In this document: in pieces, positions 1,748 through 8,238 of the stretch | Numbering within the stretch: the first letter of the stretch is position 1 | How the letters are laid out: each line of letters starts with the position of its first letter | Origin: Flavobacterium sp. | Lineage (GTDB): Bacteria > Bacteroidota > Bacteroidia > Flavobacteriales > Flavobacteriaceae | Direction: 5' to 3' | Length of the DNA: 10,000 bases | Assembly: GCF_020217025.1 (NCBI RefSeq) | Contig: NZ_JAIWOF010000117.1 | Location: forward strand, 1-10,000 | Translations under genes and position numbers: made by a program | Notes under the pieces: generated by a model | Database searches by the model: none | Told to the model about the DNA's origin: nothing | What the model saw: only the letters and a program-made list of their open reading frames with translations

Positions 1748-2971
1748 TTGAAACTTTTAGTTATATCCTCAGCACCTATTGTTGAATTGAATGGCAAATT
1801 ACATTTGTATGCTCCCTATGAAAAGGAAATGCAATTGTGGGCAAAATATGCTGATGCAATACAATTTTGTTGCCCTATTTGGAGAGAAGATAAAAAACTT
1901 TTAATCGCTCCGATTTCTTTCAAAGTTGATACGATTGTAGCACTTCAAGAATTTGATATCACTTCATTTTCAAATAAACTGAAAGCAATTCCTCTTGCTT
2001 TTTTAGCTTTAGTAAAAATTTTCAAAGCCATGAAACAAGCCGATCATATTCATTTGCGTTGTCCAGGGAATATTGCCTTATTAGCATGTTTGGTTCAAAT
2101 TTTATTTCCTAATAAACAAAAAACGGCTAAATATGCAGGAAACTGGGATCCTAAAAGTCAACAACCTTGGAGCTATCGCCTTCAAAAATGGATTTTATCT
2201 AATCCTTTTTTAACTCGCAATATGCAGGTTTTGGTCTATGGGGAATGGGAGGGAAGTAGTACGAATATTAAATCATTTTTTACCGCTACTTATAGTGAAG
2301 AGGAGATTGGGAGATTGGGTGACTGGGAGATTGGGAGACTGGGAGATGGGGAGACGAGGAGATTGGGAGACTGGGAGATTGGGAGATTGGGAGATGAGGA
2401 GACGAGGAGATGGGGTGATGGGGTGACTGGGAGAAGAGGAGATGGGGTTAAGTTTTTATTTGTGGGGACACTTTCGCCTGGAAAGCAGCCTTTATATGCT
2501 ATTCAATTAGTGGAAGAGTTTCATAAAAAAGGGAAAAAAGTGGCTCTTGAACTTTATGGGGAAGGTGTTTTACGAAAAGAATTAGAACTTTATATAGCCC
2601 AAAATAATTTAGAAAGTATTGTTACTTTAAAAGGAAATCAAACTAAAGAAACGGTTTTAAAAGGGTATCAAAACAGTCATTTTTTAATTTTACCATCCAA
2701 AAGTGAAGGTTGGCCAAAAGTAGTAGCGGAAGCTATGTTTTGGGGTTGTGTTCCAATTGCTTCACCTGTTTCTTGTGTTCCCTTTATGATGGGTAATGGA
2801 AGTAGAGGTATTGTTTTGAAAGAACAACTACACAACGATATAAGTCAAATAATGAACGTTTTAAATAATCAAGAAGTTTATAAAAAAATGGCTTTAGATG
2901 GACAAACTTGGTCTAGACAATTCACAACCGATAAGTTTGAAATAGAAATTAAGAAGTTGTTGAGAAATTGA
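1748..2971 (+). CDS. GT-B glycosyltransferase (GT4-like) with a repeat-encoded linker insert
   Basis: 407 residues. The N-terminal Rossmann-like domain spans about 1-183. The C-terminal domain, of glycosyl-transferases group 1 type, spans about 234-407. It opens with KFLFVGTLSPGKQP and contains the EX7E motif as E320 and E328 in SEGWPKVVAEAMFWG, where the sugar-nucleotide donor binds in GT4-type retaining enzymes. Between the domains, residues 185-232 are six octapeptides of the type EIGRLGDW, encoded by an 18-unit octanucleotide array. Without them the protein would be about 359 residues, ordinary for the family. The start is TTG at 1748: it gives the typical MKLLVISSAP N-terminus, whereas the first in-frame ATG is codon 28, inside the fold. 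The role is presumably sugar transfer onto a lipid-linked polysaccharide intermediate at the inner face of the membrane. Whether the enzyme tolerates the insert is unknown; both domains look intact. Donor and acceptor cannot be predicted. Confidence 0.88.
   Translation: MKLLVISSAPIVELNGKLHLYAPYEKEMQLWAKYADAIQFCCPIWREDKKLLIAPISFKVDTIVALQEFDITSFSNKLKAIPLAFLALVKIFKAMKQADHIHLRCPGNIALLACLVQILFPNKQKTAKYAGNWDPKSQQPWSYRLQKWILSNPFLTRNMQVLVYGEWEGSSTNIKSFFTATYSEEEIGRLGDWEIGRLGDGETRRLGDWEIGRLGDEETRRWGDGVTGRRGDGVKFLFVGTLSPGKQPLYAIQLVEEFHKKGKKVALELYGEGVLRKELELYIAQNNLESIVTLKGNQTKETVLKGYQNSHFLILPSKSEGWPKVVAEAMFWGCVPIASPVSCVPFMMGNGSRGIVLKEQLHNDISQIMNVLNNQEVYKKMALDGQTWSRQFTTDKFEIEIKKLLRN
2301..2444 (+). repeat. 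Octanucleotide array 2 (18 units) inside a glycosyltransferase gene
   Basis: Exactly 18 units in unbroken 8-bp register (144 bp, 48 codons), more varied than array 1: position 1 is A or G, position 4 A or T, positions 7-8 mostly CT, TT, TG or CG. Positions 2, 3, 5 and 6 (G, G, G, A) are invariant in all 18. It is translated in frame as six Arg/Gly/Asp/Glu/Trp-rich octapeptides. TGA trinucleotides created by T-variant units (for example 2320, 2416, 2424) all fall outside the gene's frame. The array lies at the boundary between the two GT-B domains. Confidence 0.97.
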
Positions 2972-2981
2972 TTTTGAGACA

Positions 2982-3053
2982 GGGAGATGGGGAGATTTTG
3001 AGATGAGGAGATTGGGAGATTGGGAGACTGGGAGACTGGGAGACTGGGAGATG
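2982..3053 (+). repeat. Octanucleotide array 3 (9 units) after the first glycosyltransferase
   Basis: Nine units in register, beginning 11 nt after the stop codon, with one TTGAGATG variant at 2998 and a flanking half-unit on each side (TTTGAGAC before, GGGTGTTT after). Positions 3007-3052 are identical over 46 nt to 1207-1252 in array 1. A T-rich stretch with three GTTTGAT motifs (3058, 3083, 3097) follows. Confidence 0.96.
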
Positions 3054-3084
3054 GGGTGTTTGATATTGATTTTTGTTCTTGTGT

Positions 3085-5584: not shown

Positions 5585-6557
5585 GCATGGTTTTAATAAA
5601 ACCACAATAGAAACTTTAGGACTTCAGCTAGAGCAGGAAGGTTATACAATTTATTATGCTTCTGATAAAAAGTCCTTTTTATTTCGATTGTTGGATATGA
5701 TATGGGCTGTATTTATCTATCGCAAGCAGGTGTCTTACATTTTGATTGATACCTATAGTACAAAAGCGTTCTGGTATGCTTTTTTTTGTAGTCAATTGGC
5801 ACGTATTTTCAATATTAAATATATTCCTATTTTGCATGGTGGCGCTTTACCAAATCGGTTAAAAAAGAATCCCAAGTTATGCCAAATATTGTTTGCCAAT
5901 GCACACAAAAATATTGCCCCATCAGGTTACTTAAAAAAAGCTTTTGAGAAAGCAGCTTTTACAAATGTAATCTACATTCCGAATTCTATTGAAATTGAAA
6001 AATATCCCTTTAAAAAAAGAACTGAATTAACTCCAAAATTACTTTGGGTTCGTGCATTTGCTTCTATTTATAATCCTGAAATGGCGGTTAAAGTTTTACA
6101 ACAACTTCAAAAAAAATCTCCTTCTGCTACTTTAACTATGGTAGGGCCTGATAAAGATGGAAGTTTACAAACCACTAAGGATTTTGCCAAGTCTATTGGT
6201 GTTACAGTAAATTTTACGGGGCAATTGCCTAAAGAAGATTGGTGGCAGTTGGCTACAACTCATGATATTTTTATCAATACCACTCATTTTGATAATACGC
6301 CTGTTAGTGTTATGGAAGCTATGGCTTTAGGATTGCCAGTGGTGAGTACGAATGTAGGCGGAATTCCTTATTTATTACGTGATAAAGAAAATGCGTTATT
6401 GGTTAATGATAATGATGTTGTAGCGATGACGAATGCTATTTGTAGTTTGCTAGAAGATCGAGAACAATGCAAAACCTTAGCATTAAATGCTCGTAACTTT
6501 ATAGAACAGATGGACTGGGATGTAGTGAAGGAAGGTTGGAAGCTGGTTTTGAGGTGA
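5550..6557 (+). CDS. GT4-family glycosyltransferase (DX7E variant)
   Basis: 335 residues. The ATG at 5550 gives the typical N-terminus MKLLYLGNQLSKHGFNKTTIE and makes the gene overlap the end of the ligase/polymerase gene by 35 nt. The N-terminal domain includes ILHGGALPNR (94-103) and IAPSGYLKKAF (122-132); the C-terminal domain begins near TPKLLWVRAF (161-170). The usual EX7E motif appears as D248 and E256 in FDNTPVSVMEAMALGLPVVS, a conservative change seen in some GT4 members. The protein is compact but both domains are complete. It is likely to extend the same lipid-linked glycan as the neighbouring enzymes. TGATTTTGAGAC at its stop codon is identical to the stop context of the glycosyltransferase at 1748-2971. 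Confidence 0.9.
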   Translation: MKLLYLGNQLSKHGFNKTTIETLGLQLEQEGYTIYYASDKKSFLFRLLDMIWAVFIYRKQVSYILIDTYSTKAFWYAFFCSQLARIFNIKYIPILHGGALPNRLKKNPKLCQILFANAHKNIAPSGYLKKAFEKAAFTNVIYIPNSIEIEKYPFKKRTELTPKLLWVRAFASIYNPEMAVKVLQQLQKKSPSATLTMVGPDKDGSLQTTKDFAKSIGVTVNFTGQLPKEDWWQLATTHDIFINTTHFDNTPVSVMEAMALGLPVVSTNVGGIPYLLRDKENALLVNDNDVVAMTNAICSLLEDREQCKTLALNARNFIEQMDWDVVKEGWKLVLR

Positions 6558-6577
6558 TTTTGAGACGAGGGGAGAGG
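6558..6577 (+). repeat. Probable short remnant of the octanucleotide repeat
   Basis: Directly after the TGA stop is TTTTGAGACGAGGGGAGAGG. It contains a TTTGAGAC variant and GAGG/GGGGAGAG pieces of the RGGWGAYK unit, out of strict 8-bp register. The preceding TGATTTTGAGAC is identical to the sequence leading into array 3. The assignment rests on that shared lead-in and the position; the stretch is too short to stand alone. Confidence 0.5.
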
Positions 6578-6781: not shown

Positions 6782-8164
6782 ATGAGTGCCTTCCAAAAAA
6801 TACATTTTGAAATTTCAGAACGCAAAATCTTATTGCGTGTCATGGATGTGTTTTTTACTTTAATGACTTTAGCATTAATTGGACATTATACAAAATTTGA
6901 TTATTTCAAAATATCCCAAACCAATTTTTACTGGACAATCGTTTTAGCTCTTTATTTGGTTTTCTTCGGAACAATTTTCGAAATGTACAATTTACAAACC
7001 GCAAGTAACCGATTTCAAATATCTAAAAGTATTATTTTAACAACTTCTGTAACTGTTTTACTTTATTTGTTAACTCCTTTTTACACTCCTGTTTTGCCTT
7101 CTAATCGTTTCCAAATTATTCTGTTTTTCTTTTCTATTTTAATTTCATTGTCCATTTGGCGTTATACTTACATTATTTTTTTGGCTTCCAATCGATTTAT
7201 GAAAAAAGTACTTTTTGTGGGAAGTAGTAAAGATATAGATGGTTTGGTAAATGAATTGGCTAAATTTAATCCGCATTATAAAGTTATGGGTTATGTTGCT
7301 GTAGATGAACAACCTAATAATACAAATGTAGCACGTATTTTAGCGGAAAATCTAGATACGTTTGTGTCCCAAAATTATATTTCTGAAATTGTGGTAGCCA
7401 ACGTTAAAAATAAATTGACTTCCGTTAATTTGTATAATAAATTACTGCGATTGCTCGAAAAAGGGATTGTAATTCGAAAATACAATCAAGTTTATGAAAA
7501 CAGTACCTATCGATTACCTATTCATTTTGAAGATCGCGAGTTATATAAGTTTTTTCCGTTTAGTAGAAGCAATCAAAATAAATTATATGTGTATTACACT
7601 CGTTTTTTTGATATCGTTTTTTCACTAGTTGGATTAATTGGTTTTTTTATGTTGGCCCCCTTTTTATGGATAGTCAACCTTTTTGTAAACAAGGGAAGTT
7701 TCTTTTATACTCAAGAGCGCGTAGGAAAAAATGGTGTTCCTTTTACAATTTACAAAATGAGAACCATGGTGCAAAATGCCGAACAAAACGGGGCTGTTTT
7801 TGCAACAACTAATGATAGTCGAATTACTCCTTTTGGTAAATTTCTAAGAAAGACAAGATTAGATGAATTACCCCAATTTATCAATGTGTTGAAAGGCGAC
7901 ATGGCCATCATCGGTCCACGACCAGAACGACCTGTATTTGTTGATCAAATTGCGGCTTCAATTCCTTTGTACCAAACTCGCCACGTTATTAAACCTGGAC
8001 TTACAGGTTGGGCACAAGTGAATTATCCTTACGGTTCTAATTTAGAAGACAGTTTAATGAAGCTTCGTTATGATTTGTATTATATCAAACATCGTAGCTT
8101 GTTTTTAGATATCAATATTGTTGTGAAAACAATGAGTACGGTATTGTTTTTTAGAGGGCAGTAG
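6782..8164 (+). CDS. Undecaprenyl-phosphate sugar-1-phosphate transferase (polyisoprenyl-phosphate hexose-1-phosphotransferase, WcaJ/WbaP-like)
   Basis: 460 residues. About four N-terminal membrane segments lie within 18-137. A cytoplasmic Rossmann-like (CoA-binding-like) domain starts at KKVLFVGSSKDID (141-153). A further membrane helix follows at about 274-301, then the C-terminal bacterial sugar transferase domain. The catalytic domain shows QERVGKNG (311-318), FTIYKMRTM (321-329), RKTRLDELPQ with the Asp-Glu pair D361-E362, GDMAIIGPRPER (372-383) and KPGLTGWAQV (404-413), all typical of this family. The enzyme moves a hexose-1-phosphate from an NDP-sugar to undecaprenyl phosphate at the inner membrane, the first committed step of repeat-unit assembly. 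Full length is normal for the long WcaJ/WbaP class; glucose or galactose cannot be distinguished. Being last in the plus-strand locus is common in Bacteroidetes polysaccharide clusters. An octanucleotide array starts about 11 nt after the stop. Confidence 0.95.
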   Translation: MSAFQKIHFEISERKILLRVMDVFFTLMTLALIGHYTKFDYFKISQTNFYWTIVLALYLVFFGTIFEMYNLQTASNRFQISKSIILTTSVTVLLYLLTPFYTPVLPSNRFQIILFFFSILISLSIWRYTYIIFLASNRFMKKVLFVGSSKDIDGLVNELAKFNPHYKVMGYVAVDEQPNNTNVARILAENLDTFVSQNYISEIVVANVKNKLTSVNLYNKLLRLLEKGIVIRKYNQVYENSTYRLPIHFEDRELYKFFPFSRSNQNKLYVYYTRFFDIVFSLVGLIGFFMLAPFLWIVNLFVNKGSFFYTQERVGKNGVPFTIYKMRTMVQNAEQNGAVFATTNDSRITPFGKFLRKTRLDELPQFINVLKGDMAIIGPRPERPVFVDQIAASIPLYQTRHVIKPGLTGWAQVNYPYGSNLEDSLMKLRYDLYYIKHRSLFLDINIVVKTMSTVLFFRGQ

Positions 8165-8174
8165 AGAGGGGACT

Positions 8175-8238
8175 GGGAGATTGGGAGACGAGGAGATTGG
8201 GAGACGAGGAGATTGGGAGACGAGGAGACGAGGAGATG
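8175..8238 (+). repeat. Octanucleotide array 4 (8 units) after the sugar transferase
   Basis: Eight units in register, followed by a GGGTGAAG half-match. Here the units alternate, GGGAGACG then AGGAGATT, forming a 16-bp higher-order repeat from 8183 (two exact copies and a third with a changed second half). Fewer GGG triplets are consecutive than in the other arrays. It lies between convergent genes, and its reverse strand gives a spurious SQSP-type ORF. Confidence 0.96.

Follow-up and report, generated by a model that had tools for sequence, protein, structure and literature searches.

The window, the whole 10,000-nucleotide stretch of DNA that was analysed, is part of a surface-polysaccharide cluster of Flavobacterium. 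It carries a hexapeptide-repeat acetyltransferase-like gene (SAT, 619-1170), the GT-B glycosyltransferase gene GTA (1748-2971, forward strand), a second glycosyltransferase gene (GTB), an O-antigen-ligase-like gene (WZY), a third glycosyltransferase gene (GTC), a sugar transferase gene (PGT, 6782-8164) and an Lnb-like gene on the strand opposite to the rest of the cluster. The order GTA-GTB-WZY-GTC-PGT is kept in 11 distinct relatives, as far as the fetched stretches extend, with SAT upstream in seven of them and the Lnb gene downstream in nine. The gap between SAT and GTA (1171-1747), just 2 nt long in F. proteolyticum, measures 577 nt here; repeats and other sequence have thus been loaded into this spacer.

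The GTA gene begins with a TTG start codon and encodes 407 amino acids. By predicted function the product is a GT4-like glycosyltransferase; it has the two-domain organisation of the GT-B fold, and Glycos_transf_1 (PF00534) matches its C-terminal half with 74 bits against a cut-off of 26.4. Alignment and structure model place the N-terminal domain at residues 1-182 (1748-2293, forward strand) and the C-terminal, Glycos_transf_1 domain at residues 236-407 (2453-2968, forward strand). Between them lies an in-frame octamer array on the same strand (2302-2448, with 18 units up to 2445), which TRF reported both as a period-8 array at 2302-2434 (score 140) and as a period-32 array at 2302-2448 (score 161). 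This insert is a direct array and not a palindrome. It is imperfect, with eight distinct kinds of octamer and no more than two identical units in a row. The preliminary description had rightly recognised an array of 18 units but had placed it at 2301-2444; its start is moved to 2302, because the 18 octamers, or 144 nt, count from there. As also stated in that description, 18 × 8 = 144 nt keeps the frame: the ORF 1748-2971 is translated straight through the array to the 407-residue product, with no stop in the coding frame and one and three stops in the other two. The proposed position between the two domains agrees with the structure model, where pLDDT falls below 50 only at residues 191-230, flanked by two confident domains. 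The array is a translated and, judging from the model, probably disordered hinge joining the two GT-B domains.

The octamer is not confined to the gene. Arrays on the forward strand lie between SAT and GTA, where the array reaches into the stop codon of SAT (1169-1287), immediately after the GTA stop codon (2970-3056) and after the PGT stop codon (8174-8236), and a short remnant follows the GTC stop codon (6553-6575). The arrays at 1169-1287, 2970-3056 and 8174-8236 are all intergenic, and the hinge array is, as had been claimed, the sole array of this octamer within a gene in the window. The further claim that one DNA element acts as spacer and as coding linker also holds: the octamer occurs outside GTA, as expected of an inserted dispersed repeat, and 60% of the hinge 11-mers recur elsewhere in the window, although the coding-piece control of this test was faulty in that pieces counted themselves. 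In the same 11-mer test the window was the only clear case; the hinge DNA of 12 other long hinges had no clear recurrence near its own locus.

In the source genome the pattern GGGAGAYTGGGAGA occurs 23 times and its reversed control not once. The double octamer, with 0-2 mismatches, was found in that genome only on the window contig and on contigs C138 and C136, and on these two further polysaccharide contigs, as in the window, the octamer comes after stop codons and on the coding strand. Read from ORF translations only, the genes of C138 include two for nucleotide-sugar dehydrogenases besides Wza- and Wzc-like ones, and those of C136 are of acetyltransferase and other sugar types. C138 has a further octamer fragment at 74-99, and a stretch of about 100 bases beside the octamer array of this contig (L054, 1-340) occurs twice in tandem. 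The octamer was rejected as a genus-wide feature, the exact 18-base pattern being present in only 4 of 348 genomes of the genus. A plasmid search with a spacer array as the query gave no match. Recent copying of the hinge from a spacer array was likewise rejected: the longest stretch common to the hinge and a spacer array is 38 nt (on C138), which is attained by 13 of 200 unit shuffles, so recent copying is not demonstrated.

The hinge array contains two four-G-run motifs on the coding strand (2309-2351 and 2365-2391, together spanning 2309-2391). They are intragenic and not adjacent to a stop codon; sets of four coding-strand G runs no more than 50 bp past a stop codon occur in two of the spacer arrays, at 1174-1256 and 3014-3056, and the motif is absent from the spacer array at 8174-8236. 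The two hinge motifs would suit an mRNA G-quadruplex that slows the ribosome at the domain border and aids separate folding of the domains. However, the heptamer and palindrome hinges of relatives, described below, are not G-run repeats, and most relatives have no array at all, which makes this function highly improbable.

The hinge of the window GTA comprises 53 residues. It comprises 17-19 residues in 91 of 109 distinct genome-derived rows, and 62 of 79 named loci have a linker of 18 residues (80 loci were fetched and the hinge of one was not measurable); orthologues without the insert therefore exist. In the 120 nearest database proteins listed, a set skewed to the near clade because it is ranked by similarity, the hinges range from 20 to 134 residues. 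The expectation that the insert would be absent from relatives is thus correct for most of them, but in many of the closer relatives this place is occupied by other repeats. The outcome named as refuting the preliminary description, homologues with a linker of this same length and sequence, was confined to the three nearest database proteins.

The hinge repeats were assigned to classes by motif after data inspection. The octamer type is translated as EIGRLGDW and the AATTYAG heptamer type as QNSEFRI; other heptamer types give YEVRSTK- and NYELRIT-like peptides. The palindrome type has a 26-residue unit (LSLRAESRTNEN...) encoded by a 78-nt palindromic element. Types may also be combined: the hinges of P0018 and P0045 consist of a heptamer stretch followed by octamers, and GTA of F. 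sasangense has a heptamer-plus-palindrome hinge, with an octamer array just past the stop codon of the same gene. The proteins P0002, P0003 and P0004, 91-99% identical to the query, have exactly its 53-residue hinge. Since P0001-P0004 retain one common hinge despite up to 9% difference elsewhere, the variation of the hinge is not always fast.

These data also bear on whether the array was misplaced into the GTA gene during assembly. The source genome is fragmented (238 contigs) and repeats of the same type lie nearby. Nevertheless, the same hinge is present in three other database proteins, whose longest contigs are 31.7, 252 and 2.9 kb (P0002, P0003 and P0004, respectively), a 472-kb contig of F. 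proteolyticum, an isolate, carries an octamer-type hinge, and a single-contig genome (G213) has an insert-bearing hinge of another, non-octamer type. An assembly artefact is accordingly very hard to credit.

Among 230 aligned GTA homologues, strong variation in length is confined to the hinge. Over 357 anchor columns, the stretch 187-236 spans 12-129 residues, and the only other stretch with a range of at least 2 (401-402) spans 0-4. The neighbouring genes were compared in 83 loci plus the window, with 37-79 sequences aligned per gene for six genes. No stretch ranging by at least 5 residues was found in the aligned orthologues of SAT (44), GTB (79), GTC (37) and the Lnb gene (62); WZY (74 aligned) has one stretch of 0-5 residues and PGT (73 aligned) one of 0-8. 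In GTA (84 aligned), stretches with a range of at least 5 occur only between residues 188 and 235. GTB and GTC are two other GT-B-type enzymes of the cluster and lack a comparable variable site; therefore, a GT-B hinge as such is not enough. The preliminary description had put the insert at the site of the fold most tolerant of insertion: the insert does lie in the hinge, but this is insufficient as an explanation, as the two other GT-B-type enzymes have no stretch that varies by at least 5 residues.

The lengths of the hinges fall into classes. The 14 distinct octamer-type hinges are 21, 22, 24, 30, 37, 45 or 53 residues long, which is 5 mod 8 in ten, 6 mod 8 in three and 0 mod 8 in one. For the 38 distinct palindrome-type hinges, two classes mod 26 hold 20 and 10, with eight elsewhere. 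Because three octamers equal eight codons, such classes mean growth by units with the frame kept, and do not point to a particular mechanism. In silico, gain or loss of one or two octamer units shortens GTA from 407 to 188-256 residues, and gain or loss of three units gives 399 or 415. The main hinge units are open when read, and some variant units would give stops if repeated purely. Six of eight spacer heptamers of other species contain a stop as written and are open on the other strand, their orientation to the genes being unchecked. On these reading-frame data, any stop-codon filter on the hinge repeats is probably weak.

Glycosyltransferases are typical targets of repeat-driven switching, and the GTA array, like a simple-repeat contingency locus, has a non-triplet repeat unit within an ORF. 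As 8 is not a multiple of 3, octamer gain and loss could shift the frame and switch GTA off and on, with the truncated products of 188-256 residues computed for changes of one or two units. However, the array is not a pure, slippage-prone run, having at most two equal units consecutively, the same hinge is kept in four database proteins, and in many relatives the hinge is built from other repeats or contains no repeats. No GTA truncation ending in octamers was found among the 120 listed matches to the N-terminal domain plus array, two of which are shorter than 300 residues. Switching of this kind appears quite improbable. Two interrupted genes were recorded: the GTA orthologue of G147 (L198, on a 3.27-Mb contig) breaks into two ORFs at its plain hinge, near an A run, and P0121 ends within a palindrome-type hinge. 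Both are unrelated to octamers.

The hinge turns over relative to its flanks. On a quick tree of 93 rows, built from 167 flank columns and with branch support by SH-aLRT only, the nine hinge classes require 39 changes, and the starred branches alone force five changes for the octamer class and eight for the heptamer-plus-palindrome class. Among pairs with flanks at least 93% identical, hinge similarity is below half in 133 of 551. When the flanks are at least 98% identical, 145 of 233 pairs share an identical hinge and 16 differ in its length. Of 354 positions outside the hinge, only 5 distinguish P0038 from P0042, whose hinges of 56 and 21 residues are unrelated; P0050 and P0075 differ at 6 of 354 and have hinges of 21 and 134 residues. 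Between P0041 and P0063, five of six differences are located at 237-253. Over 16 such different-hinge pairs, the zone reaching 33 residues out from the hinge holds 38 of 157 mismatches, versus 57 of 862 in 111 same-hinge pairs, this zone making up 66 of the 354 columns; the near-identical pairs share members and most are metagenome contigs, so mixed assemblies or strain mixing could mimic hinge exchange. The enrichment of mismatches beside the hinge fits the exchange of a short stretch that would include the hinge.

A related possibility is that the array serves as a patch of homology for swapping the N- and C-terminal domains of glycosyltransferases. The GTA gene is mosaic; in the close set the segment-distance correlation is 0.30 across the hinge versus 0.49 and 0.48 within the domains, and P0005 and P0006 are alike in the first part of the hinge and different after it. 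Yet another place within the C-terminal domain is equally low (0.30), and the sliding correlation has its minima near residues 332 (0.19) and 93 (0.11), not at the hinge (0.35 and 0.33). Of 669 change-points, 14 fall at 176-182 and 236-245, though a further 148 fall at 246-260, and the conserved flanks blur their placement and limit the resolution. Domain shuffling at the hinge was rejected as a candidate, as the change-point histogram and the segment and sliding correlations gave no clear hinge-specific signal, and an array kept as such a joint is considered improbable. Phase switching and hinge-specific domain shuffling are both less supported. As a separate observation, residues 1-100 of GTA vary from 17 to 100% identity to the window protein among relatives, residues 101-182 are conserved, and the sliding-correlation minimum near residue 93 belongs to the genome set, suggesting that the segment 1-100 may itself be exchanged among relatives.

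Selection might favour the variation, if the enzyme or its polysaccharide is adjusted through linker length or charge and the hinge is a diversity cassette of a surface-sugar enzyme. The hinge type turns over among proteins with nearly identical flanks, and the site has no counterpart elsewhere in GTA or in the two other GT-B-type enzymes of the cluster. Against this, P0001-P0004 keep one hinge despite their divergence elsewhere, and neutral tolerance accounts for the same pattern; a selected hinge is unlikely. The broader conjecture that populations keep swapping in spacer-repeat linkers, with the diversity selected because the surface polysaccharide would be altered by hinge length or charge, is entertained as possible, if on the doubtful side.

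The repeats found in GTA hinges also enter other genes. Of 10 genomes searched, 9 contain dispersed copies of the palindrome and all 10 contain the AATTYAG heptamer, with no match for the reversed controls. In F. tibetense there are 29 matches to the palindrome pattern, two of them in GTA, and the other 27 were covered by 20 fetched regions. By a mechanical test the palindrome is inside a long ORF in nine of the 20; one of these was judged to be upstream of the likely start, leaving eight. Seven loci of this species (L215, L216, L221, L224, L226, L227, L234) have the palindrome in frame in apparent housekeeping genes, and LeuRS-, MetH- and HemW-like ORFs, named by reading the translations, hold it in frame. 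A palindrome-derived in-frame insert, CHFERSREA, was followed in HisA (L217, L255-L264): 12 genomes were searched, two were without a match, and the insert is present in four of the other ten, partial in two and absent in four, including the source genome. For the AATTYAG heptamer, 20 regions were fetched from three genomes; two of them have it within an ORF, which is one GT2-like gene in both, and these heptamers are translated in the GT2-like glycosyltransferase of two species (L236, L250). Thus, HisA, the other palindrome-bearing ORFs and the GT2-like gene make in-frame repeat uptake wider than GTA. GTA stands out in that several repeat families are collected at one site.

We consider that the GTA hinge is a tolerant, frame-filtered landing site for resident spacer repeats, whose alleles are exchanged between strains, and assign this reading a probability of about 0.7. 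Resident spacer repeats would enter the tolerant hinge, in this genome the octamer that also trails stop codons in polysaccharide loci, and in relatives heptamers or the palindromic element would be taken into the same hinge. Only repeats and copy numbers that leave the frame open would persist, so that octamers would accumulate in steps of three units (8 residues) and the 78-nt element in any whole unit (26 residues). Hinge alleles may then pass between strains as short recombined stretches via the conserved flanking sequence. The position of the array, its open frame, the repeat families, the length classes, the uniqueness of the site and its turnover relative to the flanks are direct observations; we infer that the repeats were captured from spacers, that strains exchange them by recombination, and that the protein for the most part tolerates the insert and does not depend on it. 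The reading is weakened by the hinge-spacer match of 38 nt, no longer than unit shuffles allow, and by the 12 other long hinges whose DNA had no clear recurrence near its own locus.

Spacer DNA seems to have supplied this one protein hinge again and again. Accounts of protein evolution usually leave intergenic simple repeats aside, and this single site documents how several unrelated spacer repeats became protein. Its stepped lengths and near-identical flanks make the origin of repeat linkers, their exchange and their functional cost testable in one gene. For annotators, GRLGDWEI- or QNSEFRI-like peptides may be real parts of proteins and not misread spacer. No published titles on repeats in this GTA hinge were found in a search whose coverage left out most subscription journals.

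Several known systems are comparable. Simple-repeat contingency loci are known, for example, in Haemophilus influenzae; the GTA array resembles them in having a non-triplet repeat unit in a glycosyltransferase gene and differs in being impure, in lying at a domain hinge and in giving no sign of switching. Palindromic elements within protein-coding genes of Rickettsia were reportedly described by Ogata in 2000. According to a later review, the Rickettsia palindromic elements are dispersed repeats that lie in frame in protein genes and are translated (PMC10969869). The palindromic element of Flavobacterium is like them as far as that account goes, being in frame in genes such as HisA. In contrast to the elements as presented there, the GTA hinge collects several unrelated families, including tandem arrays of 7-8 nt, its content turns over between near-identical proteins, and the window insert is not palindromic.

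In Xanthomonas and Nostoc, heptamers with G runs, GGGAATC and GGGGA(C/T)T, are described as located between co-directional genes, close past stop codons and on the coding strand, and as under-represented in coding regions (PMC4692102). The octamer shares with them, on that description, the character of a short G-run tandem repeat after stop codons on the coding strand, whereas its sequence is GGGAGA(C/T)T, it is restricted to polysaccharide loci in the source genome and it is translated in one gene. Arrays of the heptamer TAACTGA in Beggiatoaceae, Cyanobacteria and some Bacteroidetes are mostly intergenic, with some in ORFs, and their author expects them to be tolerated between the subunits of modular proteins or at protein ends (PMC4679880). 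Most of the in-ORF cases given in the accessible text of that work lie at the ends of proteins or belong to hypothetical proteins, and, unlike for GTA, no recurrent hinge is described there (PMC4679880). Repeat variation is also known in F. psychrophilum (PMC8400371). The in-frame uptake of dispersed repeats is a known kind of event, and the GTA hinge is a variant of it.
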